A DNA stretch of 64,000 bases from Muribaculaceae bacterium (GTDB lineage: Bacteria; Bacteroidota; Bacteroidia; Bacteroidales; Muribaculaceae): NCBI GenBank assembly GCA_022510405.1, contig JAFLTP010000005.1:1-64000 (forward strand). Reading direction: 5' to 3'. The position numbers and the translations under genes are program-made. Each line of letters starts with the position of its first letter. Positions within the stretch are counted from its first letter, which is position 1. Below, piece after piece: positions 19,321 through 44,057 of the stretch. The notes beneath the pieces are model-generated. The model searched no databases. It saw only the letters and a program-made list of their open reading frames with translations, and was not told the origin of the DNA.

Positions 19321-19331
19321 AGATGTCAATA

Positions 19332-25240: not shown

Positions 25241-25268
25241 ATTTGCGATATCTCAGGTTTTCTAAATA

Positions 25269-26219: not shown

Positions 26220-26766
26220 AGCTATAATATTTGGCAGCAATTTGAGCCAATGCTTGTAAAGCCCGTTTCTTAATATTATAAAGATTGTCTGTCGTAACCC
26301 CTAATTTTTTTGCCAGCTCCTTTGGATCCCTGTCATTCAACACAAGTTCTCTTATCGTTTCAACGAAACGAGGATTATTCATCAAAGAAAGAAGATTATC
26401 AATGTCAATCCTAATGTCGACAGAAGTCAAAGATTCGCAGTTGGAGGTATCTTTTTCTTCTGCCCTGAAGTTTTCTTCTAAAATACCTTCTCGGTATTTG
26501 TCACGATAACTGATAAAGAAACGTGTCGCTACAACTTTAATCCATTGGTAGACCGAACTCTTGTATTGAAAATTCCGGAGTTTATGTCCATCCTGATCCA
26601 TGAGATAACCATAGAATTCTGCTATCATTTCATCATAATCCACAGGATGAGAAAACACTACTTTGAAGATAGACAAGAACAAAGGTCTGCACTGGGAGTA
26701 CAAGAATTGCTTTGTAATATCATTGTCACGATTAAGTAACCCTTGTACTATCTCCGGATCTGACAT
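26209..26766 (-). CDS. Sigma-70 family (ECF-like) RNA polymerase sigma factor
   Basis: 185 residues. Region 2 is around 20-95 (YDEMIAEFYGYLMDQDG, FQYKSSVYQWIKVVATRFFI) and region 4 around 135-175 (ELVLNDRDPKELAKKLGVTT, with the recognition helix DNLYNIKKRALQAL). It is the first gene of the sigma/RyR-peptidase/TIR operon and overlaps the next gene, so it is probably its own operon's regulator. A minus-strand -7-like TAAATTTG lies at 26844-26851. Confidence 0.85.
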   Translation of the reverse strand: MSDPEIVQGLLNRDNDITKQFLYSQCRPLFLSIFKVVFSHPVDYDEMIAEFYGYLMDQDGHKLRNFQYKSSVYQWIKVVATRFFISYRDKYREGILEENFRAEEKDTSNCESLTSVDIRIDIDNLLSLMNNPRFVETIRELVLNDRDPKELAKKLGVTTDNLYNIKKRALQALAQIAAKYYSYGR

Positions 26767-27566: not shown

Positions 27567-29390
27567 TCAATTTTGATATAGATTTTCTAGAAATTGATAC
27601 ATTTCATTCTCATGTTGGATAACTTTATCCTTGGTCCAAGTATCAGAGGTGTCGTTTTCATTAGATTCCTTGTATTTTGTCCACATATCCAACATCTTTA
27701 GGCTTTGAAGTTGAGAAGTCTCTATCTGATGATGAATTCTCTCCATTTTCATTCCTGCCGGATCATTGCTTTGTTGGGAATTGAAGGAAGAAGAAATCAT
27801 AGCCAGATTACCAAACCGGTTGAGTTCATACCCTTCCCATTTATCAGATTTTGAATCAGTCGGAGTCTGAGGATGTAAATGTTCTATTGACCTGTTGGAT
27901 CGGAATACATACCTTTTAACAGCCTCCTTATACTGAGGATAGTCTTTCAACCATTCTTTGTCAACGTGATCCCATAGTTCAAAATCTAATCTCCAAAACC
28001 AATATCGCTCCACTTTCCCACTTTCTACCGATTGATATGTCAATTCTGCTTTTTTGGGTAAATTGGGGTGCAAAGATCTGTCTATATCAAAAAGTGCTTT
28101 AAATTCCTGTTCCGGTTTAGGTGAGGGATTGTCTATTATCCATTTAATGTATGGTTTCAACCATCTATAAAATTGGTTTTGGTTAGAAACATGTAACATA
28201 GATTGAAATTTTTCAATCTTATGATTGATGTCCAAGGTTATAAGATTATAATCATAGTCACCCTCCGTTTCTTGCCAAATAATTTTATAATCCAATATCA
28301 ATCTGCACTTTATAAGGTTTTCAAAAAATTCGTCAATTAAATTCTTTTCTTTTAAATTGGCATCGCGAAAACGGGTTAAAAGATGATCTGTTTTATAAAA
28401 AGAACTGCTATATTCACTACCAATAGTTAAATCTAAAGCCATCAATAATAACTCTTCAAAAGAAATGATCATTTTTTGAAAAACATCCCCCAAATTGGAT
28501 TCATAGAATTTATTTGATTTAGGTTCTATTTCTTCAATAGATGAAAACTCTGTTGCAAGTTTATCATTATTTTTCAAAAGGGTTTGATAATTCTGCATAA
28601 TATCTTCATACCGTAGTCTATAATTATCTATAGACTCTTCTTCTCCTCGGCTTAATATTCTTTTGTATTCATCCCCTATTTTATTCCATAAGATTGATAG
28701 GCTTTCTGACTGCGGATGGCCATTAATAAGATCAACGAGAAGAATTTCATGCTGTTGAAGTTGCTTCCCTGTGGCATTCATAGCCTCGAAATATTTGTTT
28801 AATCCTCTTGGGTTATTTAGATAACTTTCCGGAAGATAACTACAAAAAAAGATTAGATTGTTCCAAATAAAATCGGAAAAATCTTTAATGTCATTATAAT
28901 CTAAAATGTTATCTTCTTTTAAAAACTGAGTTTGTAACCAAATTTTTATATCATTTATTGATTGTTCCATCATCTTGTTGGGATAAAGGGTCTCATTTAT
29001 TCCACAAGATCGTTGATAGAAGTATTGAGTGTCTTTTTCCCGGGCGGAAAATTCGATCCTCTTGCCAAAATTTAAAAACTTATCCCAATATTTTAATTCA
29101 TCCTCATATAATTCTTTTAATGCAATAGCGATAAGGGACACCACGGTCATACGTTGTTGCCCATCAATCAGGTCAAGTTGTTGATTGGTATTTTTTGACA
29201 CAGTCAGAATTCCAATGTAATAATTAGACTCTTTATTTTTCCAACATTCGGTCAAATCTTCCAAAAGTTTATAAATCTGTTTTTTCTCCCATGCAAAAAG
29301 GCGTTGATAGATTGGAATATTAAACACTACATCAGGGTGGTCTTCAGCAAGGGTTTTTGGTGTAAAATTATTTATATTGTCCGATTTCAT
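27567..29390 (-). CDS. DUF262/DUF1524 (GmrSD-like) nuclease protein
   Basis: 607 residues from the ATG at 29390, chosen over 29432 because it reduces the overlap with the preceding gene to 23 bases. The N-terminal DUF262 (ParB-like NTPase) has IPIYQRLFAWEKKQIYKLLE, YIGILTVS and the hallmark LIDGQQRMTVVSLIAIALK. The C-terminal DUF1524 region contains SNRSIEHLHPQTP and RFGNLAMISSSFN, the HNH-like catalytic pattern with HLHPQ. GmrSD proteins are type IV restriction systems cutting modified DNA; here it pairs with a second DUF262 protein upstream. Confidence 0.85.
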   Translation of the reverse strand: MKSDNINNFTPKTLAEDHPDVVFNIPIYQRLFAWEKKQIYKLLEDLTECWKNKESNYYIGILTVSKNTNQQLDLIDGQQRMTVVSLIAIALKELYEDELKYWDKFLNFGKRIEFSAREKDTQYFYQRSCGINETLYPNKMMEQSINDIKIWLQTQFLKEDNILDYNDIKDFSDFIWNNLIFFCSYLPESYLNNPRGLNKYFEAMNATGKQLQQHEILLVDLINGHPQSESLSILWNKIGDEYKRILSRGEEESIDNYRLRYEDIMQNYQTLLKNNDKLATEFSSIEEIEPKSNKFYESNLGDVFQKMIISFEELLLMALDLTIGSEYSSSFYKTDHLLTRFRDANLKEKNLIDEFFENLIKCRLILDYKIIWQETEGDYDYNLITLDINHKIEKFQSMLHVSNQNQFYRWLKPYIKWIIDNPSPKPEQEFKALFDIDRSLHPNLPKKAELTYQSVESGKVERYWFWRLDFELWDHVDKEWLKDYPQYKEAVKRYVFRSNRSIEHLHPQTPTDSKSDKWEGYELNRFGNLAMISSSFNSQQSNDPAGMKMERIHHQIETSQLQSLKMLDMWTKYKESNENDTSDTWTKDKVIQHENEMYQFLENLYQN

Positions 29391-31200
29391 ACATTTCCGA
29401 AATTTTTTGTTTAATACTGTTTTCTGTAACAAGTGGATAAATCATTCCAATGGCTTTTCTTAATTCCTGATAAAATTGCTCCCGTCTACCTTTGAAATCT
29501 TCATCCGGAAGTGTATTAGGATTTATCTTAATATGTGACAATACTTCTGCCAGAAAGAAAGTTGGTGATGTGGCTTGATCTATCATCATTACCATTCTAC
29601 TGTCTTTGGCATGCTGCCATAATCTTTTCCTTCTCATTTGACTAAAGGAATACCTATCATCGGCGATTAAAGAGGTTATACAGAAAAATGCTTCAGGAAG
29701 GTATTGCATATGAAACTTTAAAAAATATGCGAATAAGAGTGTTTCGATCACTTGTTTGTAATATATATGAGAAGAATAGGATAATACTTGGTCCAGCGCT
29801 TTAAAGACTTCTGTATCCTGGAATAGTTTATATTCACCAACAAAATTTTCTGTATAAGCGAAAAAATGTGTTCCTCCTTGTATTTTTTCATAAAAATCAA
29901 ATTTTTCTCCAAAAGGAGGAATTGCATCTATAATTGGAGCGGCTATAAATTCATTTTTTACTATATGTGTGGTTTCCGGTACATCTAATAGTCGCATCCA
30001 TTTACGTAATTTTAATAAATGGGAACCCAATGTAACTTTTAAGTCATGGCCTTTTGATTTAGAATCTTTCTTATTGTCAATTGAACTATCATAATTCTGT
30101 GACACCATATCATCCCATCTCGAGGCAAGGTGGTGTGCTTGCATGGGTTTAATAATATATTGAAGATGATGAGCTTTCAAAAGGTCATAATCAGTCAATG
30201 GAATTCCCTTGTTATTATTACTGTTGAAAAAAGTATATGCAAGGTCAAGACTTGTATTTTTCCCTAATATTAAAAGTCCAAATTTAATTTTTTTCCCACC
30301 CTCGTTATGAAATATTTCTCTCATTCTATTGTCTCTTCTTTGATAAAGGTTTTTTATTAGATTTTTAGCCGATGCTATGTTTTTGAGAGATTGGGTGGAG
30401 CGTATCTTTTCTTTGAGCAATGGAAGAGTGTATTGATAACCTAAAACCATTGCCATGAGACTTAAGGTGATCAAACGTTGTTGACCATCTATTATATCAA
30501 ATTGATTATCTATATTTTGTAAGATAATATTGCCTAATTGAATTTCCCCCTGACTTGAAGCCATTGAATCCCAAAGGGTAATAATATTGCTATCGGTCCA
30601 ACAATAATTTCTTTGATAAGATGGAATACGGAGATTTAAAGACATCAAATCATGAAAAGAACATTCATAAAACTTTACATCATAATTACTTTCTATTTCT
30701 CTTTTAAAGCTGGTCTCCGTATCATATGGTTTTAATTCTGATGGGGTGTGAGAAGTGAGTAATTTGTCTACTGATGGTGCTTCATTGAATGCCTCATTTA
30801 TTATAGGATCTAAAATAGTCATTAATCTCTCAAACTCTTTCACGATAGTTTCCAAAGAATCAAACCCTTGGTCTTTTATGACACATTGGCAATTTGGATG
30901 ACCCTGGAAATCCGTCCATTCCAAATTAGGGCATTTTTCTTTAGATTTTTGTATTATATATTTTCGGAAAGAAGAATAACTTGGTGAATTATAAGGTGAT
31001 TCAAAATGAAATCCCACTTTTGATTCAGTGAATTCATAATGTATTCCTCCGATTTTATCGTTGGCATTCAATACTGACACTTGTATATGTCTGTACCACT
31101 TTGAACTGCTGTCATCGGTATAATTTGAAACAACAGTTCTGTCAGGGAAGGCTTTTTGCAAATATTTAGTTACCCATGTTTTTATTCTTATAAAACTCAT
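29368..31200 (-). CDS. DUF262 protein with extra N-terminal domain, HNH part absent
   Basis: 610 residues. Residues 1-140 form a separate domain (IKTWVTKYLQKAFPDR, GIHYEFTESKVGFHFES), perhaps nuclease-like or DUF4268-like, which I cannot place firmly. From about 180 comes a DUF262 domain: NLRIPSYQRNYCWTDSNIIT, LGNIILQ, FDIIDGQQRLITLSLMA, then SNNNKGIPLTDYDLLKAHHL. The C-terminus is helical and shows no HNH EHxxP motif, so it may be the NTPase (GmrS-like) partner of the protein encoded just downstream, which overlaps it. It starts 23 bases after the PLD gene. Confidence 0.8.
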   Translation of the reverse strand: MSFIRIKTWVTKYLQKAFPDRTVVSNYTDDSSSKWYRHIQVSVLNANDKIGGIHYEFTESKVGFHFESPYNSPSYSSFRKYIIQKSKEKCPNLEWTDFQGHPNCQCVIKDQGFDSLETIVKEFERLMTILDPIINEAFNEAPSVDKLLTSHTPSELKPYDTETSFKREIESNYDVKFYECSFHDLMSLNLRIPSYQRNYCWTDSNIITLWDSMASSQGEIQLGNIILQNIDNQFDIIDGQQRLITLSLMAMVLGYQYTLPLLKEKIRSTQSLKNIASAKNLIKNLYQRRDNRMREIFHNEGGKKIKFGLLILGKNTSLDLAYTFFNSNNNKGIPLTDYDLLKAHHLQYIIKPMQAHHLASRWDDMVSQNYDSSIDNKKDSKSKGHDLKVTLGSHLLKLRKWMRLLDVPETTHIVKNEFIAAPIIDAIPPFGEKFDFYEKIQGGTHFFAYTENFVGEYKLFQDTEVFKALDQVLSYSSHIYYKQVIETLLFAYFLKFHMQYLPEAFFCITSLIADDRYSFSQMRRKRLWQHAKDSRMVMMIDQATSPTFFLAEVLSHIKINPNTLPDEDFKGRREQFYQELRKAIGMIYPLVTENSIKQKISEMYEIGQYK

Positions 31201-31223
31201 ATGTCAATAATTTTCAAAATATT

Positions 31224-31742
31224 TCAGTTAATTGGGTCTCCACAGAAATCTCTGCGACCACATTTTTTGCAATGATCACCTCGCCACACGCTATCGAATT
31301 GTTCCATAGCAGATTCAACCAATGATGGTTCATCAGTAAATATGCCGGCTTCGAAATTTCTTCTATTACTGCTTTTCATACCCATTCCTGCACCGGTTAA
31401 GTTGGCTGAACCGATATAAGCATATTTTCCGTCGATAATAATAATCTTGAAATGGACTCTAGGACATAAAACTCTTTCAAGCATAGTTTTCAGAACCGGA
31501 TATTTGTCAAAATCTTCCCTGAAAGCTTGTCCCGGTTCTTTAGCATGAATCAATCTCACGTCTACACTTTGTTTTATCAAATTGGCAATAACGCTTAAGA
31601 ACGGTTCTGAATGCAATCCTGACTTGACATAAAGATCCTTTATGTCAGCTGTGCCGACCCATAAAAGTGATTTGGATGTCTTGACTTTTTCCAATACTAC
31701 CTTATAATGGTCTATGTTAGCAATGAATTGAATCATGAACAA
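31224..31742 (-). CDS. Phospholipase D-like nuclease with C-terminal cysteine motif
   Basis: 172 residues with a single PLD motif: H97-x-K99 ...D104-G in RVHFKIIIIDGKYAYIGSAN followed by LTGAGMG. Single-HKD members (Nuc/BfiI type) act as dimers on DNA phosphodiesters or lipids. The tail GDHCKKCGRRDFCGDP adds three cysteines spaced like a metal-binding knuckle. It starts 2 bases after the metallopeptidase gene's stop, inside the MoxR/vWA operon, so it is likely its effector or processing nuclease. Confidence 0.8.
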   Translation of the reverse strand: MFMIQFIANIDHYKVVLEKVKTSKSLLWVGTADIKDLYVKSGLHSEPFLSVIANLIKQSVDVRLIHAKEPGQAFREDFDKYPVLKTMLERVLCPRVHFKIIIIDGKYAYIGSANLTGAGMGMKSSNRRNFEAGIFTDEPSLVESAMEQFDSVWRGDHCKKCGRRDFCGDPIN

Positions 31743-31744
31743 AA

Positions 31745-32371
31745 TTACTTATTTTTGGTAAGATAGAGATAATAACCGTAATAAGGCGATAAGGCTATAT
31801 CGTGTTTAACCTTTGCAAGTTTGGAATCTTCACCGATTAGCTTAGATAAAAAATCCCAAAAGCTTTTCCGGTGATGTTTATATTTGTAATGAGCCATTTC
31901 ATGAAGTATAACTCCGTCCATCCATTCCTCTTTGAAAATGACAAGAAATGGTTGTAAAGTTATATGATTTGAGTGAGAACATTGACCTAAAATATTTTTT
32001 CTTAATCTTCTTACCGTTACTCCGGAACCCTTTAAACCTTTAATGTTCTCCCAATATTTAACCCTATCAGGAAGAATCTGTTTTGCCGTATTCAAGATTA
32101 CATCCCGCAATAAATCCCTTAACCATTTCTGAATTTTCTTTGATTCAAAGTCAGTCGCAGGGCAATAGATTAAATCTAACTGTGCTTCCGAATATTGAGC
32201 CAAGATAACAGGTTTTTGTTTTACACTAAACAATGACCTTCCCTGAAATTCAATAGCCGATTCACATTCGAGGGTGTAATCGTCAACCAGATACCAATCG
32301 ACTGAGAGATACTTGCTTTTCAATCGGAAGTTAGGATTTATTTTATATGTCGGTTCCCTTATATTACCCAT
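31745..32371 (-). CDS. YgjP-like (DUF45/M48-type) zinc metallopeptidase
   Basis: 208 residues. C-terminal half matches the YgjP/DUF45 family: VRRLRKNILGQCSHSNHITL, then the gluzincin HEMAH (H157, E158, H161) in DGVILHEMAHYKYKHHRKSF with a later His/Glu context. In this family the pattern is GxCsxxxxIxLxPxLv...vixHExaHxxxxxHsxxFW, which is followed well. The N-terminal ~75 residues are a beta-rich extension not typical of YgjP. It overlaps the vWA gene by 13 bases. Substrate unknown; may process an operon partner. Confidence 0.75.
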   Translation of the reverse strand: MGNIREPTYKINPNFRLKSKYLSVDWYLVDDYTLECESAIEFQGRSLFSVKQKPVILAQYSEAQLDLIYCPATDFESKKIQKWLRDLLRDVILNTAKQILPDRVKYWENIKGLKGSGVTVRRLRKNILGQCSHSNHITLQPFLVIFKEEWMDGVILHEMAHYKYKHHRKSFWDFLSKLIGEDSKLAKVKHDIALSPYYGYYLYLTKNK

Positions 32372-33690
32372 ATCTTATCAAGAATTTTATCGTAGGAATG
32401 TTTCCATTTGCCGATTTGCAAAGCATAAAATTTAGTTCCCAAAGTTTTTTCTTTTTCAATCTTTTCCTGCGTTTCAGTTATCGGTTCCGGGAACTGTAGG
32501 TCAGATATTATAAGGACATCCGCCATTTCATAAGTCCCTTTATTTAATACCTCTAAGGATTGCTTGAACATTTCCTCTCCGTCAGTTCCTCCGGAATAAA
32601 ATTCAGTCAAAAAATTTTCAAGCCTTCCCCAGTTTTGAGGTTTTGCCAGGTCAATTGATTTGGCTCTTACGGAATAAGTAATAAGAAAACAAGGTCTCTT
32701 TTGAGATTTGGCTGTCTTTATAAGCTGCCTTAATAAAGAAAAAGCTATTTGTAACGGTCGACCATCCATTGAACCGCTTGTATCAACACTAACTATTATC
32801 GGGCCTTTGTTCAAGCGGGGATCTTTTTGAGTCGATTCAATTTTTTTAGGCTTATCTTTACCGGGACTGCTAAGTTCTTGAAGTCCCTTAGTGAGATATT
32901 TTTTAAAGAACATATCTTCCGGCATAGCAAATTCTACCGGCATCACTCTTTCAAGATTATTTCCAAGTGAAACCCTATCAATCTCTTCCACGCAATGATT
33001 TCTTGAAACTGAAGTTGGCATAAATTTATAAATCACCTTATCCATCTCCTCCTTGGAAGACTTTTGTTCACGGCCTATCATCTCAATTATCTCTTTGAGT
33101 TGAGGATAATGGAAAACAAATTTTTCAACTTTCTTTCGCTCTTCATAATCCTGGGTTCCGGCTCTCTGTGATGATAATTCAAAATCTCTTTTTGAACGTT
33201 GCAATACTTGCAATTCCTTTGTTTCAAGCCTGGAAATGCAGGAATCCTTCCAATCATTTGTCAGTGACTGAAAGATGGCGTCACGGTTTTCTGTCTTAAA
33301 CTGTTCCACATAGCCTGGAAGGTTCACTTCAAATTTAGAATAATTGTCTTCAATATGCTTGATGACATCTTTCCACATTTCCCTTTTCTGCTCAATACCG
33401 GCAATTTGAAAAGATTGAATAAAAGCCAGTTCTTTCATTGCCTCCAATTGTAGTTCACGATATATTTCCAGAAGCCTTGCAAAATATGAAATTATGTTGT
33501 CTTTCATAATCTCCACCCATAAAGGATCCGTGAAATCCACTTGTGGATTATTGTCGATGACATCTTTCATATAACCTATAAGGATATCTTCAGGAGACGA
33601 TGTTTCAGGAATTTCCTCTTTATCCATATAGAAATCGAATACATCACTGTATTCTTCCAATTTTGCATCTATGTCGGTATAGTCAATCAT
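32359..33690 (-). CDS. vWA domain protein (ViaA/CoxE-like)
   Basis: 443 residues. Long helical N-terminal part (about 1-285), then a von Willebrand factor A domain from about 296 with an intact MIDAS DTSGS at 303-307 (PIIVSVDTSGSMDGRPLQIA), a later SGGTDGEEMF threonine loop, and ADVLIISDLQFPEP. The layout matches ViaA and other vWA partners of MoxR AAA+ ATPases. Its start overlaps the MoxR stop (ATGA), the typical coupling for such pairs, so the two should form a chaperone-like complex. Confidence 0.88.
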   Translation of the reverse strand: MIDYTDIDAKLEEYSDVFDFYMDKEEIPETSSPEDILIGYMKDVIDNNPQVDFTDPLWVEIMKDNIISYFARLLEIYRELQLEAMKELAFIQSFQIAGIEQKREMWKDVIKHIEDNYSKFEVNLPGYVEQFKTENRDAIFQSLTNDWKDSCISRLETKELQVLQRSKRDFELSSQRAGTQDYEERKKVEKFVFHYPQLKEIIEMIGREQKSSKEEMDKVIYKFMPTSVSRNHCVEEIDRVSLGNNLERVMPVEFAMPEDMFFKKYLTKGLQELSSPGKDKPKKIESTQKDPRLNKGPIIVSVDTSGSMDGRPLQIAFSLLRQLIKTAKSQKRPCFLITYSVRAKSIDLAKPQNWGRLENFLTEFYSGGTDGEEMFKQSLEVLNKGTYEMADVLIISDLQFPEPITETQEKIEKEKTLGTKFYALQIGKWKHSYDKILDKIWVI

Positions 33691-35279
33691 TTCCTGTTTA
33701 TCATCAGCAGAATATTATTAATCTTGACTTCCGTTGTCTTAATAGATTCCTCGATATCTTTGTTAATTTCCATCACCAATGCAAGGTCTTGGGGAGAAAG
33801 GAAGATATTGTCACAATTTCGCCAATTGTTTAAGACTATGTCATCCCAATCTTGAACAATTTTACGGAACGTCTCTTGTGCTAAAGTAATTTTCGAAAAG
33901 AGAGAAATATTTTTATCATTTGATTCTGTTTCCGAATTTGATTTACTTTTGAAAGAGTAAGGTACGGAATCAATAATGACTCCTCCGGGACATTTTCTTA
34001 CATGAACCTTTGTCATTTTTGAGGCATTGGGAAGCCTTCCCTCGAATGGCTTTCCCGGTACCAAAATATGGATAATGTTATAGTTCCTTTTGGAATCAAA
34101 GTATTTTATTCCTTCTCGTACCGATTCATCAAGGGAATTATAATCCCATTTTGAGAAATAAGTATTCTGTTCCGGATAATTTTCTATGAGGTAATAGAAA
34201 TAATCATAAACAACAAAGGCTGAATCTTTATTTGAAGAAACATTTGATTGGCCATCAGTTGGCCCCGATTGAGAAACCATTAATGACTTGAAGGTCTTGT
34301 CTAATTTCCTTAAAGATTTTTGTATTTGAGACGTAATGCTATTTACGATTGCTTTCAGAATAGTTGGCATGGTTTCAACATCATTCCAGAAACAATGTGT
34401 CAGCAGCAGATAATCTGTAAGGTTGATTTCTTTTCTTCCATTCAGGTATGCTGATGTCTGCATCAATCGATAAGCCTTCCTCCAACGTCTGTCTGAAATG
34501 TAATATCTGAGTTGATTATTGTCTTCCTTTTCAAGGTTGTTCATTTGTTTCCTTAACGCTTTAATGGCTGTTATCACAGATTCGTTCATCGTAACAGATT
34601 TTGATTCCGTCTGCCATTTGGAAAATAAATCTTCAGTGAGTAACAAAGATTCCGGCAATGACTCATTTTTTTCATTATCAGATTTAAGCATTTTAAAGAA
34701 TGAAGAATCACTTTCGATACAATTGGAAACCATTCTAACAAGAAACCTGTCCCAGAGAGCCTCGAGACCTTCATCTTTTGCAGGAAGTTCATTGCTGGCT
34801 GCGATAAGAACCTTCAAAGGAACTTTAACAACTTCTCCACCGTTATGGAAAAGGTGTTCATTAATTACGGTAAGAAGTGTATTTTGTATTGAAGGACCCG
34901 CTTTCCATATTTCATCAAGGAAAACAACATCCGCATCAGGTAGATATCCATCGGTTAGACGTAGATATTTATCCTCGTTTTTGAGTTTTGATATTGAAAC
35001 AGGTCCAAATATCTCGTCAGGAGTTGAGAAACGAGACATTAGGTAATCGAAAGATTTCCCTGCTTTAAAAACGGATTTAAGACGTGAAGCTACCATACTT
35101 TTGGCCGTTCCCGGAGGCCCTAAAAGAAAAATATTTTCTCCGGCAATGGCACAAAGTAAAGACATGGCGATAATGTGGTCTTTCTCATAGATACCTTTTG
35201 CCATCCAATTACATAGTTCCTGGATATGGTCTTTAATATTTAGATCAAAAATATCTTTTGTCCTTAATTTTTTAGCCAT
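33687..35279 (-). CDS. MoxR-family AAA+ ATPase (RavA-like)
   Basis: 530 residues. AAA+ core about 25-330 with Walker A GPPGTAKS (54-61), MSRFSTPDEIFGPVSI, Walker B DVVFLDEI (117-124), sensor-1 region IAASNELPAKDEGLEALWDR with arginine finger context FLVRM. The C-terminal 200 residues (from about 340) are less conserved and may carry the RavA-like LARA-type substrate domain. It is preceded by the FtsZ-like gene (26-base gap) and coupled to the vWA gene. MoxR ATPases usually remodel protein complexes in tandem with a vWA protein. Confidence 0.9.
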   Translation of the reverse strand: MAKKLRTKDIFDLNIKDHIQELCNWMAKGIYEKDHIIAMSLLCAIAGENIFLLGPPGTAKSMVASRLKSVFKAGKSFDYLMSRFSTPDEIFGPVSISKLKNEDKYLRLTDGYLPDADVVFLDEIWKAGPSIQNTLLTVINEHLFHNGGEVVKVPLKVLIAASNELPAKDEGLEALWDRFLVRMVSNCIESDSSFFKMLKSDNEKNESLPESLLLTEDLFSKWQTESKSVTMNESVITAIKALRKQMNNLEKEDNNQLRYYISDRRWRKAYRLMQTSAYLNGRKEINLTDYLLLTHCFWNDVETMPTILKAIVNSITSQIQKSLRKLDKTFKSLMVSQSGPTDGQSNVSSNKDSAFVVYDYFYYLIENYPEQNTYFSKWDYNSLDESVREGIKYFDSKRNYNIIHILVPGKPFEGRLPNASKMTKVHVRKCPGGVIIDSVPYSFKSKSNSETESNDKNISLFSKITLAQETFRKIVQDWDDIVLNNWRNCDNIFLSPQDLALVMEINKDIEESIKTTEVKINNILLMINRK

Positions 35280-35305
35280 TATTATTTAGAAATTAATATG
35301 TTAGT

Positions 35306-36034
35306 TTAGAAATTAAGATTTTGACCGGAAAAGAATGTAATCATCTTTATTTGATTGTCTTTAAATTTTTCATCAATTACTATTTGCCATCTAACATATG
35401 TAGTTTCGGGTAAAGTTCTGGTAGTTTCTTGCACTATCCTTAAATCATTTGTGGTGGTAGATTGATATGTTTTATAATTAAAAGATAATATTATAGCCAC
35501 ATTATCTATGGTTCCACTTTGTTTTATAACTTCTTTAAAATGTAACATTAAAGAATCCAATTTCTTATCACTTTTTTCGCTAACATCAGTATAGATCTTA
35601 AATTTCCCTTGGCCTTTCATTAGTCTCAGCATGTCATCGAAATCAAATTCAATATAACCATGGTGGAATAAGGGATAGAGGATTCCCAAAACCGTATTTT
35701 TTATAAATGTTTGCTCTGTAAGACAAACTGCATCATAACTACTTGTAATTTCGTTGAATCCAGCAGAAGCTATAACAAGGATTAAAATGTCAGCTTGAAA
35801 AAATAATTGGGTCAATAAAGAGATATCATAATTATCCGGATTTATGAAAATGACCATTTCGTCCTCTTCAGATGGACTGATTTCTTCTTTGCCAAAAATA
35901 ATTGTTTTAACGCCCTGATAGCCCCAAGAATCTATTTCATTTAAAATAGATAGAGTTTTCTCTCCAATCCCGAAGACTCGAAAACTTACCGGAGGTATTG
36001 TTAACTCCCTTTCCTGAAAATATTGATCTATCAT
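35306..36034 (-). CDS. Degenerate FtsZ/tubulin-like protein
   Basis: 242 residues. The chain follows the FtsZ GTPase order but lacks key loops. Residues 17-34 (SFRVFGIGEKTLSILNEI) take the place of the first strand and glycine-rich loop. Residues 82-96 (DILILVIASAGFNEI) replace the strand and GGGTG loop. Residues 126-147 (YIEFDFDDMLRLMKGQGKF) parallel FtsZ 'IN.DFADV..VM...G.A', then a helix and DNVAIILSFN resembles 'A..VLVNI.G'. The GGGTGxG signature is gone, so GTP hydrolysis is doubtful. It opens the MoxR/vWA operon and could be the remodelled client. Fold assignment is by pattern only. Confidence 0.5.
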   Translation of the reverse strand: MIDQYFQERELTIPPVSFRVFGIGEKTLSILNEIDSWGYQGVKTIIFGKEEISPSEEDEMVIFINPDNYDISLLTQLFFQADILILVIASAGFNEITSSYDAVCLTEQTFIKNTVLGILYPLFHHGYIEFDFDDMLRLMKGQGKFKIYTDVSEKSDKKLDSLMLHFKEVIKQSGTIDNVAIILSFNYKTYQSTTTNDLRIVQETTRTLPETTYVRWQIVIDEKFKDNQIKMITFFSGQNLNF

Positions 36035-36046
36035 GATAAAATATAA

Positions 36047-36086
36047 TGGCGATTAATTAAAACATTCTTTTTTATAAAAATCGCCA
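36047..36086 (-). promoter_or_regulatory. Inverted repeat upstream of the MoxR operon
   Basis: TGGCGATT (36047-36054) and AATCGCCA (36079-36086) are perfect 8-base inverted arms separated by 24 AT-rich bases, ending 13 bases before the ATG at 36034. This is a plausible operator or leader hairpin. No exact TAnnTTTG is found between it and the gene. Confidence 0.4.
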
Positions 36087-36132
36087 CTAAAATAAAAAGT
36101 AGGTGTATCAGTTTTGGTGACAAGATAGAAAA

Positions 36133-36378
36133 TTAATCGTCTTTTTGATTTTTGATTCCAAGCATATTATCTATCCATATAAAGAAATCCTTAAACGCGG
36201 AGATCATATAATCTCCTAATATTATTGCTGCTAATGTAAATCCAATGAATATTTTGATAAATATATGACGATCAGGGCCAATATAACAAGCAGCTATTCC
36301 GAAAACAAACAATACAAAAAGATTAATTGATAGACTTTTAATTACTTGAGCTGAAGGTTTCATACACAATATGTGCAA
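36133..36378 (-). CDS. Small two-helix membrane protein (81 aa)
   Basis: Unrecognised. Two hydrophobic helices (about 14-34 and 42-60) and a short amphipathic, charged C-terminus (FFIWIDNMLGIKNQKDD). An internal ATG (MKPSAQV) would shorten it by 5 residues. It lies 98 bases upstream of the FtsZ-like gene on the same strand and could be a membrane anchor or the first gene of the MoxR operon. Confidence 0.5.
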   Translation of the reverse strand: MHILCMKPSAQVIKSLSINLFVLFVFGIAACYIGPDRHIFIKIFIGFTLAAIILGDYMISAFKDFFIWIDNMLGIKNQKDD

Positions 36379-36558: not shown

Positions 36559-37398
36559 CTATATATCTAAAAAATTATCAGGATGGTGTATTAATTCTTT
36601 TATAAACTGCTTATATTTATCAAGCATATTTATAGCGTCTTGTAGATCCTGTTTTGTTATCCAGGGTTCATGAACCTCAATGGAATCTTGCATAGTTTCT
36701 CTCAATTCAATTTCAGTTTCCATAATGTCTGTCATAACTTTGATCTCAGATTCTATTTTTTTGAAATTATCTTGAGATTTAACCAGAGAAGGGAGTTCAT
36801 TCAGAAATTCTTTAAAATGGTATTTATTGAAAATACCTTCCATACACTTATTAAATCTTGAAATATAAGTCCATTTAGAAGTCGAAGAATATTTTCTACC
36901 TGTAAGATATTTTGCAAATTCTTTTTTGAATGGGAATTTAAATGAGGGAGAATAAGGTGGACAAGAGTCTCCTAAAATCTCATGTCTAAAATTTATAAAC
37001 TTGAATTCCAGAAATAGCATATAGGTTCTAAGAGCCTGGACCCAGTTTTGAACAACTGCAATTTTCCATTCTTCCTTTTTTTCATTAAAAATAGCGATCC
37101 CATTATTTAGGCTGACTAAATCTTTTATATATGCATCTAAATATTCCAATGCATATTCAATATCCCATACCGCAATGATTTTTTGGAAAAGGTTTTCAGA
37201 CGGTCGTACTATAGGTTTGAAAGACGTTTCTATAACTCTAAACAAATCCTTATAAGTATAGCAAAAATTATCATATGCAGTCCTTATGTTTGAAAGATAA
37301 ATATTGACTGACTCTTTGGAAAGACCATGTCTTTCAATGCACCATTCTTTGAATTCCTCTTGAAATGGAGGGATTCCCTTATTTGTTTTCTTTTCCAT
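36559..37398 (-). CDS. Protein with integrase N-terminal (SAM-like) domain resemblance
   Basis: 279 residues. The N-terminal ~60 residues (FKEWCIERHGLSKESVNIYL, then SNIRTAYDNFC) resemble the core-binding domain of tyrosine recombinases, with the usual 'Y...L..F' helix. The C-terminal half contains a second similar helical stretch (RKYSSTSKWTYISRFNKCME), but the catalytic R-H-x-x-R-Y set of a recombinase is not visible, so it is at most a DNA-binding relative. Its promoter region carries an 11-8-11 inverted repeat (37411-37440), either an autoregulatory operator or a recombinase-type site. Function unknown. Confidence 0.5.
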   Translation of the reverse strand: MEKKTNKGIPPFQEEFKEWCIERHGLSKESVNIYLSNIRTAYDNFCYTYKDLFRVIETSFKPIVRPSENLFQKIIAVWDIEYALEYLDAYIKDLVSLNNGIAIFNEKKEEWKIAVVQNWVQALRTYMLFLEFKFINFRHEILGDSCPPYSPSFKFPFKKEFAKYLTGRKYSSTSKWTYISRFNKCMEGIFNKYHFKEFLNELPSLVKSQDNFKKIESEIKVMTDIMETEIELRETMQDSIEVHEPWITKQDLQDAINMLDKYKQFIKELIHHPDNFLDI

Positions 37399-38016: not shown

Positions 38017-38559
38017 TTAATATCCAATCACTAATATACCTTTTAAAGGTATCATATTCCTTACACGAGATTTATATAATGCATCTATATAATTTTTTAC
38101 ATTTTCATAATCCTTCTTTTCCGGTTGATTACTTATTTGATAGATTTTTTTTACAGCTATTATTAGATATTCAATATCAGGTAAAACACAGGCTTCAAAG
38201 AGATCCTTTAAAAATTGATTATTCGCCCATCCTCTACCAGCTTCTATTTCGATTATAGTTTTGGTATTTTCATTATAAGCATCCACATCAAATTTTTGAT
38301 CTGTACCATCCACTGTAAAGGTAATTTTATGCTTGGAAGACTTCCCTTTTTCTACTTTATAACCAATACCTTCCAAGTCATTAGACAGAATTTTTAAAAC
38401 ATCATTACTTTTTAAATTTTTATTTTTACCCATATGAGTTTCCGAAGAAATTTCTGCATTATGTTTTTCAAAAATTTCAACTACTTCATTGAGAAAGCTC
38501 TCTCCTGAGGGAAAACAAGAGCTCAAGATCTTAGAATGTTTAAATTGTTTTTTACTCAT
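38017..38559 (-). CDS. Predicted PD-(D/E)XK restriction-type nuclease
   Basis: 180 residues. The core FDVDAYNENTKTIIEIEAGRG matches a PD-(D/E)XK-fold active site: D93, then E104-I-E106 at the usual spacing, the second half being E-x-E rather than E-x-K as in BglII-like enzymes. Downstream strand LPDIEYLIIAVKKIY fits the next core strand. The N-terminal 80 residues are helical. No methyltransferase is adjacent, so if it is a nuclease it is either solitary or works with another system. Confidence 0.55.
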   Translation of the reverse strand: MSKKQFKHSKILSSCFPSGESFLNEVVEIFEKHNAEISSETHMGKNKNLKSNDVLKILSNDLEGIGYKVEKGKSSKHKITFTVDGTDQKFDVDAYNENTKTIIEIEAGRGWANNQFLKDLFEACVLPDIEYLIIAVKKIYQISNQPEKKDYENVKNYIDALYKSRVRNMIPLKGILVIGY

Positions 38560-38620: not shown

Positions 38621-39109
38621 TTATAAAAGTTTCAAGGCAATGGCGGCACAAGCTTCGGCATCTGCTAATGCATGGTGGTGGTTGTCCAAGTCATAGCCAC
38701 AAGCCGCTGCTACTGTATGAAGCTGATGGTTCGGGAGTTTAAGGCATCTCCGCGAAGCCGCCAGAGTACAATGGAATTCATATCCCGGATATTCCAGTCC
38801 ATATTCTAAAAATACAGCTTTCAGACAACTTTCATCAAAAGGTTTGTTATGAGCTACCAAAGGCAAGCCTTCAAGTCGATTGCTTATTCTTGCCCATACC
38901 TCCGGGAAATTTTCTTCATAATCCGTGTCGTAATGGTCAAGACCATGTATGGAAGTTGTCCATTCCGTATAGTAATTGGGTCGGGGACGAATAAGACTAT
39001 AAAACCGGTCTACTATCTCACCATTTTTTACTATGACGATACCTACACTGCAAACACTTGAACGTCGACCATTCGCTGTTTCAAAATCTATTGCTGCAAA
39101 ATCTGTCAT
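38621..39109 (-). CDS. DEDDh 3'-5' exonuclease (DnaQ-like)
   Basis: 162 residues, the single-domain DnaQ form. DEDDh motifs: ExoI D8/E10 in AAIDFETANGRRSSVCS, ExoII around LVAHNKPFDESCL with the Asp, ExoIII in NHHHALADAEACAAIAL with H and D. Proofreading or RNA-trimming nuclease in the cytoplasm. Close relatives are common housekeeping or phage-linked proteins in Bacteroidales, so its placement in the island may be incidental. Confidence 0.9.
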   Translation of the reverse strand: MTDFAAIDFETANGRRSSVCSVGIVIVKNGEIVDRFYSLIRPRPNYYTEWTTSIHGLDHYDTDYEENFPEVWARISNRLEGLPLVAHNKPFDESCLKAVFLEYGLEYPGYEFHCTLAASRRCLKLPNHQLHTVAAACGYDLDNHHHALADAEACAAIALKLL

Positions 39110-39858: not shown

Positions 39859-40539
39859 ATGGAGGATATTTATAGAAAACGAATGGAATGGTGGTTTGCA
39901 GAGTTTTGTGCTGCAAACCAGGTAGATCATTTTCTTGAATTATTCCCTGAATTAAATGGTCGTTTATCAAAGTTTGGTGTCGGGATACTTCAATGGGGCC
40001 TGGGTGGATTGATTGATATTGAAAATCCTGATGATGTGAGTCGTGTAAGAATGATTTTAAAAGTTATTGATTCTACTCCCGGATTCGATTTCTTTGATCA
40101 AAGTTTCAACGAATGTAGCCCGGATGTCGTATGCGAAATACTTGGAATGTCTTCTAAGGTGTCAAGATTAGAACAAAAAATAGCGTATGATTACGTCGTA
40201 ACACCAATTAAGACATATGAAGAAGCCAAGGAATACGAGGAGATGGTTTCTTGGTGCATTGTAATTTCAAAAGAAGCTTTTGAGGAGTACACTAAGAACG
40301 GTAATAGATTCTACTTCTTAAACAATGGGGAATGGTGGGATGTACCGTGTATTCCAGGGATAGAATTTCCCTACGATAGTTATGGATATTCCCTAATTGC
40401 AGTTGAAGTTTCTCAGGATAATGAGATTGTGTCGGTTACTTCAAGATGGAACGAGTATGGTGAAAAATCAGGTAACTTTCTTATGGCAAGCCAATTAAAA
40501 GACATTCTTGGCGATAAATTTAATCATTTATTAAAATAA
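39859..40539 (+). CDS. Hypothetical protein (226 aa) with Trp-rich C-terminal domain
   Basis: Unnamed. The C-terminal half (about 115-220) reads VSWCIVISKEAFEEYTKNGN, RFYFLNNGEWWDVPCIPG, FPYDSYGYSLIAVEVSQDN and VTSRWNEYGEKSG. I recognise this style from phage- and plasmid-borne proteins of many bacteria, where 'WCI...F..Y...G..FYF' and 'D.YG.S..AV.V' recur, but not a function. It follows the 103-aa gene by 31 bases and precedes the next gene by 4, indicating an operon. Confidence 0.55.
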   Translation: MEDIYRKRMEWWFAEFCAANQVDHFLELFPELNGRLSKFGVGILQWGLGGLIDIENPDDVSRVRMILKVIDSTPGFDFFDQSFNECSPDVVCEILGMSSKVSRLEQKIAYDYVVTPIKTYEEAKEYEEMVSWCIVISKEAFEEYTKNGNRFYFLNNGEWWDVPCIPGIEFPYDSYGYSLIAVEVSQDNEIVSVTSRWNEYGEKSGNFLMASQLKDILGDKFNHLLK

Positions 40540-41175: not shown

Positions 41176-42195
41176 ATGGAATCTTCAGAACTGATTAAAG
41201 CCATTGAGGAAAAGGTTAAATTTGTTAATAATTCCCTTGAAACTAATATAGGTTGGAAAAATATATACTTAAGAAGAGCAGATGAAATTATTGCCGTTAT
41301 GAATTCCGATAAGTATCTTATACAACCTATATGTTTTTCAAAAAATCTAACCTTTTATACAAATCATACTAAACTCACTTCCCATGATGATAACACCAAA
41401 GAGTTTGATTTAAGATTTTTGGGTCAAAGTGTGGCAAGTATTATAATGAGAAAAATAGTAATCAACGGTGTAGAGGAATGGAGTTCATATATTCTAACAT
41501 CTACTAAACAAGATAAAAGTAATAAAGATTTTTTTGGTTTAAATCTTTCATTCCCTAAAGAAGAATTATGTGTTTCTGATAAGGCAAAACAATTCTTTGA
41601 ATTTTTCAATAAAAGTGATAATAATACCGGTCATAGTCCGGAACATGAAATTGAGAATTTTTTACTTAAAGCCTTTTCAGTAAAGAAAGGATCCAAAAAA
41701 TTATTACGTAATATTCAACCAGTAGTCATAGATAATGCATATTTTCAATTAATAACTCCCTTTTCAGCCAGTAAGTCACAACATACATTTTCATCTAGAT
41801 ATAAAGGAGGAGGAATAGATATTTTAGGCAGAATACGAACAAAAGATAACCAAATTGCTTTAGTAGTTTTTGAATTAAAAGATAAATATGAAAATCCTCA
41901 AAAAGTAATTCAACAAGCATCCACGTATGCAGCCTTTCTTGGAAACTTGCTAACAGAAGAGACATTCGGGGAAAAATGGTGGAAAATATTCGGTTATTCC
42001 AGAAAACCAACCAAAATAAAGTTGATAGCTTGTACTTTAATGCCAAAAGCAGCTAAACCAAAAAAATATTTACATGGAGCAGAAGGTTTTGAAACGAAAA
42101 TAAATGATAAAATTTCTTTGGAATTACATTCATTATTTTTTGATAAAACAAATAATGTTTTTCTTGGATCTTTAAAAGATTTAATGAAAGAATAA
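41176..42195 (+). CDS. Predicted PD-(D/E)XK nuclease-like protein
   Basis: 339 residues. The central motif set HEIENFLLKAF (E158/E160), GGGIDILGRIR (D215) and ALVVFELKDKYENP (E233-x-K235) is the E...D...ExK order of PD-(D/E)XK nucleases of the kind that bind and process nucleic acids. A helical stretch with PQKVIQQASTYAAFLGNLL follows, as in related bacterial nucleases. N-terminal 150 residues are not assigned. It ends 5 bases before the beta-CASP gene. Confidence 0.6.
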   Translation: MESSELIKAIEEKVKFVNNSLETNIGWKNIYLRRADEIIAVMNSDKYLIQPICFSKNLTFYTNHTKLTSHDDNTKEFDLRFLGQSVASIIMRKIVINGVEEWSSYILTSTKQDKSNKDFFGLNLSFPKEELCVSDKAKQFFEFFNKSDNNTGHSPEHEIENFLLKAFSVKKGSKKLLRNIQPVVIDNAYFQLITPFSASKSQHTFSSRYKGGGIDILGRIRTKDNQIALVVFELKDKYENPQKVIQQASTYAAFLGNLLTEETFGEKWWKIFGYSRKPTKIKLIACTLMPKAAKPKKYLHGAEGFETKINDKISLELHSLFFDKTNNVFLGSLKDLMKE

Positions 42196-42200
42196 AAGAA

Positions 42201-44057
42201 ATGAAGATTACGATCCATAGGGGAAGCGACCAGATTGGTGGATGCATCACTGAATATGAGATAAACGGGTGGAAATTGTTTGTTGACTATGGGGACACAT
42301 TACAAGGTAATGAACAAACAGAACTTAAAATAGAGGGGTTAAACACGGGAGACCTTTCTAAAAGTGCTTTATTAATTACCCATTATCACAATGATCATGT
42401 GGGTAATATTTATGAACTTTCAGAGGAGCTTCCTATTTATATGGGAGAACTAACGAAAGACATCCTATCTGAACTATCGAATCATTTATCTTCAGTTAGT
42501 GAGACCAAGGCTCAAATAGCTATAAAACTTGAATCAGTAAAGACTTTTAAAGCCGGAGAGGAAATCCATTTTGGAGATTTCCTAATTACTCCTTTCACTC
42601 TTGATCATTCTGCTTTTGATTCTTACGCATTCAAGATTGAAGCAGAAGGATTGAAAGTTTTTCATACCGGAGATTTCAGAACTCATGGATTTAGAAGTGG
42701 AAACCTTTTCAAGTTGCTTGATAAACATGTTGGCAGTGTCGATTATGTAGTATGCGAAGGGACAAATGTTGCAAGACCCGAAGTGTCGAATAAGTCTGAA
42801 CCGGAACTTCAGAAGGAATTTGAGGAGACCTTCAGAAAGAATAACGGTAATATTGTCTATGTATCCACCACCAATATTGACAGACTGTTCTCACTTTATC
42901 ATGCAGCCTTAAGAACCGGCAGGCCCTTCTATGTGGATCCATTCCAAAAGAGGATAATGGATATAGTGACTCAAAGAGATAACTTATGGGGGAAATCAAG
43001 GTTTTATAAATATGGCAAGTATGAACCCATTGCATTGAAATATGACTCCATCGAATATCTTTTCACCAATGAGTTTAAAGATTTTCTAGATGAAAAAGGT
43101 TATGTATTAATTGCAAGGGCTACGGATAGATTTGATAATTTGATTGAGAAATTGCCCGGTGAGAAGAAAAAGTATCTATCCATGTGGAAAGGCTATATAA
43201 AACCCGAAAGTACCGGATTCAGCCCAAGATTGGCAAAATCGATTGGTGAGGATGCCATTTATCTTCATACAAGCGGCCATACCGATATGGGAAGTCTGTT
43301 TAAGTTCTTTGAGGCTTTAAAACCAAAAGCGATAATTCCTATACATACAGATAATCCAAATAATTTTGCTGATGTGTTTTCAAATCGATGGCCGATTATA
43401 TTATTGAAAGATGGTGAATATTTCAATCCGATAAAAGATCCGGGATATGACAACACCACTTCTTCGATTCTTGCAGTAAAGAATTTGGATGAAGAAATTC
43501 AAATAATTTCAGTTGAGGATGATGAAAAGTGTTATTCTCTTGATGAAAAGACAATCGGAGAATTCCGAACCAAGGAAGATGCGTTATATGTTCTTAAGGC
43601 AGTTCAATATGCACCTGACAGATTAATCGGTTATAGCTATGAAGAGGTGGAAGATATGGAGCCTTGGGTAACAAAAACTTACACCTCAAATCTATCTGTT
43701 AATGCCGAATATAAGAATGGTGCCCATTCTCCGGAGGGTGCAGAATTTCAAACTCCGACCCGTTTCCAGACTGGGGATAAAGTATTATGCATTCTTTATC
43801 AGGGTTTAAATATCGTTTTCCCCGCTATCTATGAAAGTCCGATTACAATAGACTATCTACAAGAAATGTATGAGAATGATGAACTGCTTCAAATCCACTA
43901 TGACAGTTTCGATGATTATATAAAAGAAGGATTGTGGGATTGTGATAGGGATTCAGTAATTGTTTGTCCTTTAGTGAAGATAGATAATGAAGAATGGTAT
44001 GAAAGAATGTTAGTGCGTCGTCCATTCGTTTTTCCATATAAAAAATTCGACATTTGA
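42201..44057 (+). CDS. Beta-CASP metallo-beta-lactamase fold protein with C-terminal extension
   Basis: 618 residues. MBL core: motif 2 HYHNDH with H61/H63/D65/H66 in LLITHYHNDHVGN, motif 3 LDHSAFDSYAF, motif 4 VFHTGDFRTHG. Beta-CASP motifs: A in VVCEGTN, B in LHTSGHTDMG (His), C in IPIHTDN. Such enzymes (RNase J, CPSF-73-like) cut RNA; RNase J itself normally has IPVHGE at motif C, which is altered here. From about 415 a ~200-residue extension of unknown fold follows, unlike the usual RNase J C-terminus. Likely partner of the nuclease-like protein just upstream. Confidence 0.8.
   Translation: MKITIHRGSDQIGGCITEYEINGWKLFVDYGDTLQGNEQTELKIEGLNTGDLSKSALLITHYHNDHVGNIYELSEELPIYMGELTKDILSELSNHLSSVSETKAQIAIKLESVKTFKAGEEIHFGDFLITPFTLDHSAFDSYAFKIEAEGLKVFHTGDFRTHGFRSGNLFKLLDKHVGSVDYVVCEGTNVARPEVSNKSEPELQKEFEETFRKNNGNIVYVSTTNIDRLFSLYHAALRTGRPFYVDPFQKRIMDIVTQRDNLWGKSRFYKYGKYEPIALKYDSIEYLFTNEFKDFLDEKGYVLIARATDRFDNLIEKLPGEKKKYLSMWKGYIKPESTGFSPRLAKSIGEDAIYLHTSGHTDMGSLFKFFEALKPKAIIPIHTDNPNNFADVFSNRWPIILLKDGEYFNPIKDPGYDNTTSSILAVKNLDEEIQIISVEDDEKCYSLDEKTIGEFRTKEDALYVLKAVQYAPDRLIGYSYEEVEDMEPWVTKTYTSNLSVNAEYKNGAHSPEGAEFQTPTRFQTGDKVLCILYQGLNIVFPAIYESPITIDYLQEMYENDELLQIHYDSFDDYIKEGLWDCDRDSVIVCPLVKIDNEEWYERMLVRRPFVFPYKKFDI

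Follow-up and report, generated by a model that had tools for sequence, protein, structure and literature searches.

A compact operon around a MoxR-vWA core

We examined a 64,000-nucleotide stretch of DNA from a Muribaculaceae bacterium (GCA_022510405.1, contig JAFLTP010000005.1, positions 1-64,000; this whole stretch is called the window below), focusing on an operon region at 27567..36378 that encodes a MoxR ATPase and a von Willebrand factor A (vWA) protein together with a YgjP-like metallopeptidase, a phospholipase D (PLD) superfamily protein, two DUF262 proteins and an FtsZ-like protein (FtsZl) (Table 1). Seven minus-strand genes are packed at 27567-36034, where open reading frame (ORF) calls place neighbors in overlap or at most 26 bases apart, with gaps of 26 bases between the FtsZl and MoxR genes, 2 bases between YgjP and PLD and 23 bases between PLD and the first DUF262 gene, and with overlaps of 4 bases between MoxR and vWA and 13 bases between vWA and YgjP. 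The two DUF262 genes overlap by 65 bases from the first TTG, or by 23 bases with the ATG at 29390. A sequence-only reading of this DNA had named these seven genes and described them as separated by overlaps or gaps under 30 bases; all seven lie at the place and on the strand it gave, Pfam and NCBIfam agree with the domains it assigned, and the measured spacing bears out the packing. The proteins encoded in the window have their motifs intact (GPPGTAKS and VVFLDEI; DTSGS and GGTD; HEMAH; HKD; DGQQR twice; EHLHP). An eighth small ORF, at 36133-36378 and unnamed in that reading, also sits inside the block.

Table 1. Genes of the operon region and its surroundings in the window.
Feature	Position	Strand	Evidence or relatives
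Small 81-aa protein with two hydrophobic stretches	36133..36378	-	Relatives adjoin FtsZl in L088, L089, L120
FtsZl, degenerate FtsZ relative, 242 aa	35306..36034	-	Family profile, Foldseek, T7 aspartates
MoxR AAA+ ATPase, RavA-like, 530 aa	33687..35279	-	RavA model, both Walker motifs (A, B) intact
vWA protein, ViaA-like C-terminal part	32359..33690	-	ViaA model, MIDAS DTSGS and GGTD
YgjP-like minigluzincin metallopeptidase	31745..32371	-	PF01863, HEMAH
PLD-superfamily protein, one HKD motif	31224..31742	-	PF13091 (PLDc_2)
GmrS-like DUF262 protein with DUF7834, DGQQR	29368..31200	-	PF03235, PF25202
GmrSD-like DUF262-DUF1524 protein, DGQQR and EHLHP (HNH)	27567..29432	-	PF03235, PF07510
279-aa protein, phage-integrase SAM-like domain	36559..37398	-	PF13102 1.5e-5
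180-aa protein between Exo and FtsZl, D..ExE pattern by eye	38017..38559	-	No significant Pfam match
RNase T/Rv2179c-like 3'-5' exonuclease (Exo)	38621..39109	-	PF00929 1.4e-17, PF16473 4.4e-13
226-aa protein, first named gene of divergent arm	39859..40539	+	Family k21 in L066, L089; 2e-96 in L116
339-aa protein beside MBL protein	41176..42195	+	Homologue of L089 325-aa protein, 2e-30
Metallo-beta-lactamase (MBL) fold with RMMBL (RNase J-like)	42201..44057	+	PF12706 1.7e-10, PF07521 5.1e-5
AAA ATPase, 562 aa, recurrent near core	44416..46104	+	PF00004 8.3e-23

A MoxR clade with recurring neighbors

Chaperones of the MoxR-vWA type are widespread, and few of their clients are known. Evaluating the window MoxR against domain models, we found a match to the bpMoxR Pfam model at 2.1e-54 and the features of the MoxR AAA+ clade, with PF20030, PF07728 and PF17868 matched, the lid included, and Walker A and B present. 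The RavA model PRK13531 gave 5.6e-109 and 365.4 bits, below its equivalog cut-off of 681 bits, while the vWA protein matched the ViaA model at 6.6e-38 over residues 170-441 with 131.1 bits, below the equivalog cut-off of 500 bits. Compared with solved RavA (3nbx), MoxR aligned at 8.9e-90 over residues 17-311 of 530, the likeness stopping at 311, and a sequence search of the PDB at E 0.1 gave no match to vWA. Both Walker motifs are kept in all 17 full-length MoxR members, and the metal ion-dependent adhesion site (MIDAS) DxSxS in 17 of the 19 full-length vWA members. A viral-contig scan with MoxR returned zero relatives. Matches to MoxR in phage records all fell below 60% identity and spanned less than 80% of the query; the top four lie in short unannotated records.

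To place this core among its relatives (loci carry L-numbers and genomes G-numbers), we collected loci by searching with MoxR or vWA; the MoxR query gave 18 loci in genome contigs, and more came from genomes and plasmids. Twenty window-type loci, the window included, were first picked after inspection of full-length vWA or MoxR similarity and of neighbor maps. A MoxR tree then served as a check, and in it the 18 loci whose MoxR was usable formed one clade free of all 19 controls (support 0.961); L065 and L066 were assigned by vWA alone. The 19 controls, of which 18 have vWA in view, are MoxR loci that fall outside the clade, and they include non-Bacteroidales. Mapping took in the plasmid matches H1-H4 and left aside further plasmid matches, short duplicates (L001-L006, L025, L026, L038-L041) and distant vWA matches (L027-L037). 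Neighbors were counted within 12 kb, several loci holding less than 12 kb on one side, with profiles that were built from close loci and then applied to all loci.

These counts revealed GmrSD-like genes at 10 of the 20 window-type loci against none of the 19 controls (Fisher P 0.0004), as well as WYL regulators at 14 (11 full-length; split in L010, fragments in L048 and L067), PLD genes at 10 (7 full-length), AAA ATPases at 8, RNase T-like Exo genes at 6 (the L048 match being a fragment without motifs) and FtsZl at 5, each likewise against 0/19. Less common neighbors were calcineurin-type phosphoesterases (5 loci), DUF6557 (3), MBL proteins (2), RtcB (2) and HAD_SAK_2 (1), and none of these neighbor families occurred within 12 kb at the 19 controls. 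A full-length YgjP gene directly follows vWA in 10 of the 20 loci, whereas the 19 controls lack YgjP. The enrichment of GmrSD-like genes persisted when near-identical loci (L009/L013; L068-L070) were collapsed (9/17 vs 0/19, P 0.0003; 9/17 vs 0/6 Bacteroidales controls, P 0.048), and also without L066 and the window (8/18 vs 0/19, P 0.0011). The sequence-only reading had held that the run should be split in two if the core and the DUF262 proteins rarely met; with GmrSD-like genes within 12 kb of the core at half of the window-type loci, such rarity was not seen. The MoxR-vWA clade recurs in Bacteroidales beside shuffled WYL, exonuclease, GmrS/GmrSD, PLD, FtsZ-like and RNA-repair genes, and we consider the recurrent linkage of these modules very probably real.

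Gene orders and separability of the modules

Comparing arrangements across relatives, as the sequence-only reading had suggested, we found that the core and the DUF262 pair do recur together, but in at least six gene orders and with no fixed arrangement. The window has core-PLD-pair, whereas L009 and L013 have the pair directly before the core, L042 has several genes between pair and core, L046 has pair-PLD-two genes-core, L064 has vWA followed by the pair without PLD, L067 has the pair on the opposite strand, and L071 has core-PLD-gene-pair. At L064 a single frame (8205-9647) fuses the first 62 YgjP residues, without HExxH, to a GmrS-like DUF262 protein, a remnant that suggests deletion from a window-like order. 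Protein clustering separated two types of pair, one window-like (DUF7834 GmrS with HNH GmrSD), the other having a second protein of 700-800 residues (L042, L046, L066, L067, L070, L071).

The modules also occur apart. Mapping 7 of the 12 DUF262 matches in core-less genomes revealed WYL at four of these loci, PLD at three, and Exo, FtsZl and HAD_SAK_2 at two each, with no MoxR, vWA or YgjP at any of the seven. Among 111 genomes of the window's genus, the core occurs in 6, the window DUF262 in 5 and a roughly full-length FtsZl in 12 (those of G797, G801 and G791 are interrupted, deleted or partial). The core and FtsZl share 4 of these genomes where 0.65 are expected (P 0.0011; G810 has a vWA remnant only, and in G791 the two lie ~10 kb apart), DUF262 and FtsZl share 4 (0.54 expected, P 0.00039), and the core and DUF262 share 2 (0.27 expected, P 0.023), in tests that ignore the relatedness of genomes. 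A second family of 250 genomes, tested in the same way, holds a close core in 6, an L046-type DUF262 in 30 and both in 3 (0.72 expected, P 0.024). Because co-occurrence exceeds expectation while modules are also found apart, we interpret the parts as attracting each other with no pair obligate. One obligate system was rejected, since the modules are separable, and for the same reason the earlier proposal of a single multi-effector defense system is supported only in part: the data show a recurrent modular island, with separable parts and differing gene orders, but do not show a single fixed system.

A degenerate FtsZ relative and its small neighbor

The FtsZ-like call of the sequence-only reading looked weak initially (TIGR00065 in NCBIfam, E 0.0012) and was later joined by agreement from a family profile and from the fold. 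A five-member FtsZl profile also matches ordinary FtsZ, including the 454-residue FtsZ of the same genome at 1.5e-15, and at E <=1e-6 it matched 101 of the 111 genus genomes, mostly within the C-terminal domain encoded by an ORF ~450-560 residues long. A Foldseek comparison of the predicted AlphaFold2 (AF2) model with FtsZ structures gave 1rlu as the best match (E 1.9e-10, template-modeling (TM) score 0.69 by query length), consistent with an FtsZ fold. Aligning 12 members with the host FtsZ (L088 having an internal deletion and two members unread bases) showed that the T4 GGGTGTG signature is lost, with 0 of 55 aligned residues identical and 29 of 84 cells gapped, and on this ground a GTP-binding FtsZ was rejected. 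FtsZl resembles FtsZ in its fold and in its C-terminal domain with the T7 loop, but differs from it in having no GTP-binding signature, in missing parts of the N-terminal domain and in ending shortly after the C-domain with no C-terminal tail.

What is retained centers on the T7 loop, whose aspartates in FtsZ reach the nucleotide of the next subunit. Both aspartates (host D220, D223) are kept in 12 of 12 FtsZl members and the T7 asparagine (N218) in 2 of 12, and within the C-domain the likeness to FtsZ peaks at T7-H8 (47% identity vs 18% for the remainder). FtsZl is under purifying selection, the ratio of nonsynonymous to synonymous substitution rates (dN/dS) being 0.19-0.30 in the 9 of 15 pairs (6 members) with finite dS, with the other 6 pairs saturated. 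At 11 of the 13 mapped loci, all except the window and L118, the gene lies beside WYL or a few genes from it, and a relative of its C-terminal half lies beside MoxR in L042 and, weakly (4e-4), in L043. A small hydrophobic protein adjoins FtsZl in four loci (window, L088, L089, L120); in L088 and L089 the two ORFs overlap, and there its hydrophobicity is weaker. The 81-residue protein of the window is likely a membrane partner of FtsZl. A plasmid tblastn search with FtsZl found none.

Other division-type genes lie at related loci. At L046 an FtsZ GTPase-domain-only protein (12122-12880; PF00091, 1.6e-28) follows YgjP, and relatives of it at L066 (2483-3004) and L116 (17440-17955) lie on the strand opposite the C-terminal-type FtsZl, forming two complementary FtsZ halves. 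On a Prevotella plasmid, a ZapA-like protein (L042 8688-8963; PF05164, 6.2e-6) precedes MoxR by a few genes. If FtsZl does act as a decoy of FtsZ, the GTPase-only proteins and the ZapA-like protein would make manipulation of the division ring a common theme of the family.

Protease, PLD protein and DUF262 pair

The YgjP protein matches PF01863 at 2.9e-18 (67 bits vs a cut-off of 26), its nearest solved relative is proabylysin (4jiu, 5.1e-5) with WLM and SprT Pfam matches below cut-off, and HExxH is kept in 10 of 10 full-length members. The PLD protein (PF13091, 6.6e-13) belongs to a family in which HKD is kept in all 10 full-length members, and with its one HKD motif it presumably acts as a dimer. 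DISARM was considered as an identity for this gene and rejected: DrmC models match only weakly, with 40.5 bits vs an equivalog cut-off of 133, and neither DrmA nor DrmB was found among the 10 proteins scanned with PADLOC models.

The GmrS-like protein carries GmrSD_N (PF03235, 2.8e-26), DUF7834 (PF25202, 7.6e-22) and the DGQQR motif; no HNH motif was found in it, and its predicted AF2 model (predicted local distance difference test (pLDDT) 67, predicted TM score (pTM) 0.43) had no PDB match at E 0.001. The GmrSD-like protein has the domain make-up of GmrSD type IV enzymes, DUF262 with DGQQR and DUF1524 with HNH (EHLHP), and matches GmrSD_N (PF03235, 4.1e-24), GmrSD_C (PF07510, 5.3e-10) and SspE (6jiv, 0.0062). 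The GmrSD_N and GmrSD_C domains and the DGQQR and HNH motifs are those of the GmrSD/SspE/BrxU type IV restriction enzymes, from which the window differs by its tandem DUF262 proteins, one of them HNH-less and with DUF7834. In the PADLOC search that the sequence-only reading had proposed (version 2.0.0), the DUF262 proteins drew mostly generic matches (HEC-06, Orf5, SspE), MoxR drew only weak RtcR-type matches, and FtsZl, vWA and YgjP had no match at 0.01. PHROGs gave no match for YgjP, PLD or FtsZl.

Comparison with described systems

Closest in print are an account by Kaur et al. 2020 (PMC7159879) of MoxR-vWA ternary conflict systems, the MoxR-vWA with metallopeptidase of group 2.2 jumbo phages (PMC7824862), a GmrSD census (PMC4619093) and a BREX survey (PMC12839542), each compared here through the available part of its text. 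According to that part of PMC7159879, MoxR rings remodel proteins bound at the vWA MIDAS site, and rare FtsZ/tubulin effector domains are reported in MoxR-vWA systems; the window shares the MoxR-vWA core and the bpMoxR model with these systems, but has YgjP, GmrSD and PLD as separate genes and a degenerate FtsZ that stands alone. Neither a beta-propeller, a VMAP nor an iSTAND was detected by Pfam in the operon, Exo and divergent-arm genes, though a fast-evolving iSTAND could escape detection. The jumbo phages likewise couple MoxR-vWA to a metallopeptidase (PMC7824862, available part), but there the peptidase is fused to vWA and a virion-assembly role is proposed, whereas the window YgjP is separate and bacterial. 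The main text of the GmrSD census, as available, does not contain the word MoxR (PMC4619093). Within the open literature searched (titles and abstract starts, with subscription papers outside its scope) the combination is undescribed, and MoxR, DUF262 and vWA together are absent, while overlap with 'Swiss Army Knife' RNA-repair domain work is possible. We take the window operon to be a new form of MoxR-vWA conflict island, recurrent and modular.

A proposed conflict or stress-response island and its competing explanations

We interpret the operon, with confidence somewhat short of an even call, as a modular conflict- or stress-response island with a proteolysis core, nucleases and FtsZ capping. 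MoxR as an unfoldase ring and vWA as a MIDAS peptide adaptor would pass a client to YgjP, much as Cdc48, which belongs to an AAA+ clade other than MoxR, works with Wss1. Wss1-Cdc48 (PMC4559962, available part) likewise joins a minigluzincin protease to an AAA+ unfoldase, but the partnership in the window is proposed from gene order alone. Target or inhibitor proteins would be remodelled or cut once an invader or damage is sensed, and this remodelling or cleavage may license or limit the GmrSD-like and PLD nucleases against foreign or modified nucleic acid. FtsZl, predicted to have no FtsZ-like GTP binding, would offer a T7 face for docking on the nucleotide of an FtsZ subunit; the small hydrophobic partner would anchor it at the membrane, where it might cap host FtsZ filaments, with division stalled until the threat ends. 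Judging from the sequences, a role in defense or damage response as one programme is evenly balanced, and capping of host FtsZ by FtsZl is a doubtful proposal.

An alternative that we regard as quite possible, if short of probable, is that independent systems (RavA-ViaA-like, GmrSD pair, PLD, WYL-FtsZl) came together at shared insertion sites, where chance of insertion put them under one promoter. The DUF262 pair, WYL-FtsZl and the core are each found without the others, gene orders are shuffled, the core and DUF262N share only 2 genomes (P 0.023), and L066 has an out-of-clade MoxR-vWA copy beside the same genes. However, none of the modules appears at any of the 19 other out-of-clade MoxR loci, the genes overlap in the window, and links between core and pair arise in several orders and several MoxR lineages. 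A respiratory or envelope chaperone of the RavA-ViaA kind with passenger genes seems very improbable to us. The AAA+ module is similar to solved RavA, the C-terminal part of vWA matches ViaA, the genes are paired, and both proteins match the RavA and ViaA models; yet both scores are far under the equivalog cut-offs (365 vs 681 and 131 vs 500 bits), on which plain RavA-ViaA was rejected. Beyond residue 311 of its 530, MoxR no longer resembles solved RavA, and neither this remainder nor the N-terminal portion of vWA aligns. The window also differs in having a protease gene next to the pair and in its patchy core, found in 6 of 111 genus genomes and with relatives in part on plasmids.

An island for RNA-damage repair and recovery rather than DNA restriction is, in our estimate, unlikely. 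Under it, WYL would sense damage, Exo, MBL, PLD, RtcB, HAD_SAK_2 and phosphoesterases would trim and reseal RNA, MoxR-vWA-YgjP would remodel stalled complexes, and FtsZl would delay division until repair is complete. HAD_SAK_2 adjoins FtsZl in L088 and L089 (1e-16 and 1.5e-18) and, by similarity, in L116, and lies near the core in L043 (1.6e-26); RtcB lies near the core or core remnants in L071 (PF01139, 8.6e-56) and, by similarity, in L063 and L066; and L092 has a LigT-type protein (9.5e-9). In the window, this theme is confined to the RNase T-like Exo and the RNase J-like MBL (RMMBL) protein, with no RtcB or SAK relative detected by single-sequence searches; moreover, RtcB occurs at only 2 and SAK at only 1 of the 20 window-type loci, and GmrSD-like nucleases are expected to cut DNA.

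Several observations weigh against the island with a proteolysis core, nucleases and FtsZ capping. RNA-repair neighbors fit RNA-damage recovery as well as they fit DNA restriction, the modules are also found separately, and unrelated systems do accumulate in islands. The tallies use E-value thresholds, include incomplete genomes and are uncorrected for shared ancestry. Within the core, DxSxS is absent in 2 and GGTD in 4 of 19 vWA members, and two of the 12 YgjP matches are remnants (L064, and L068, where a 127-residue fragment lies apart from vWA). At L066 the clade vWA is a 119-residue remnant between FtsZl and PLD (10760-11119), and a full 483-residue out-of-clade vWA (18278-19729), related to that of L049/L050 and the center of the 12-kb count for this locus, lies ~2 kb from the DUF262 pair; with L066 counted as a control, GmrSD-like genes stand at 9/19 vs 1/20 (P 0.0033) and WYL at 13/19 vs 1/20 (P 4e-5). 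WYL itself is absent near the window operon, the genome holding unlinked paralogues only. FtsZl occurs in just 5 of 20 window-type loci, L042 having the C-half alone, the DNA covered at 6 of its 13 mapped loci shows neither core nor DUF262 nor PLD, and its structural model is of only medium confidence (pLDDT 67, pTM 0.62, five sequences).

Returning to the island with FtsZ capping, its boldest extension would be a new cell-cycle effector, a GTPase-dead, membrane-held FtsZ decoy that stops division while MoxR-vWA-YgjP and the nucleases clear the invader or damaged RNA, and from sequence features this seems rather unlikely. If true, FtsZl would be an inhibitor of the Z-ring that nature has fashioned out of FtsZ itself, linking defense or RNA repair to division arrest, and the degenerate FtsZ is the part most deserving of experiment. 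A clade that has a protease together with GmrSD, PLD or RNA-repair enzymes also makes a conflict role of MoxR-vWA testable in a small operon.

Flanking genes

Beyond the operon, Exo is a probable island member, and WYL and Exo are neighbors in L042, L046, L069, L089 and L120. The 180-residue protein at 38017-38559 could be a PD-(D/E)XK-like nuclease, judging by its residue pattern, and the 279-residue protein at 36559..37398 had no match to a catalytic integrase domain. On the divergent arm, the MBL protein belongs to family k14, also present in L042, L066 and L089. Elsewhere in the same genome (contig C24; L125 10630-11532), a WYL protein 71% identical to the L089 WYL has none of the searched island families in the surrounding 16.8 kb.

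Defense-type neighbors of the operon include TIR, RyR and HipA-like genes. A separate minus-strand cassette at 22676-26766 encodes a 185-residue protein, an RyR-domain protein (PF02026, 6.1e-33) and an 854-residue protein with TIR (PF13676, 2.9e-17) and a possible beta-propeller, and looks like another conflict system. The 185-residue protein appears sigma-like by eye, has only a sub-cut-off KORA match in Pfam, and its gene overlaps that of the RyR-domain protein. A HipA-like kinase at 19735-20526 (PF20613, 3.8e-15) is a further sign of a defense island.

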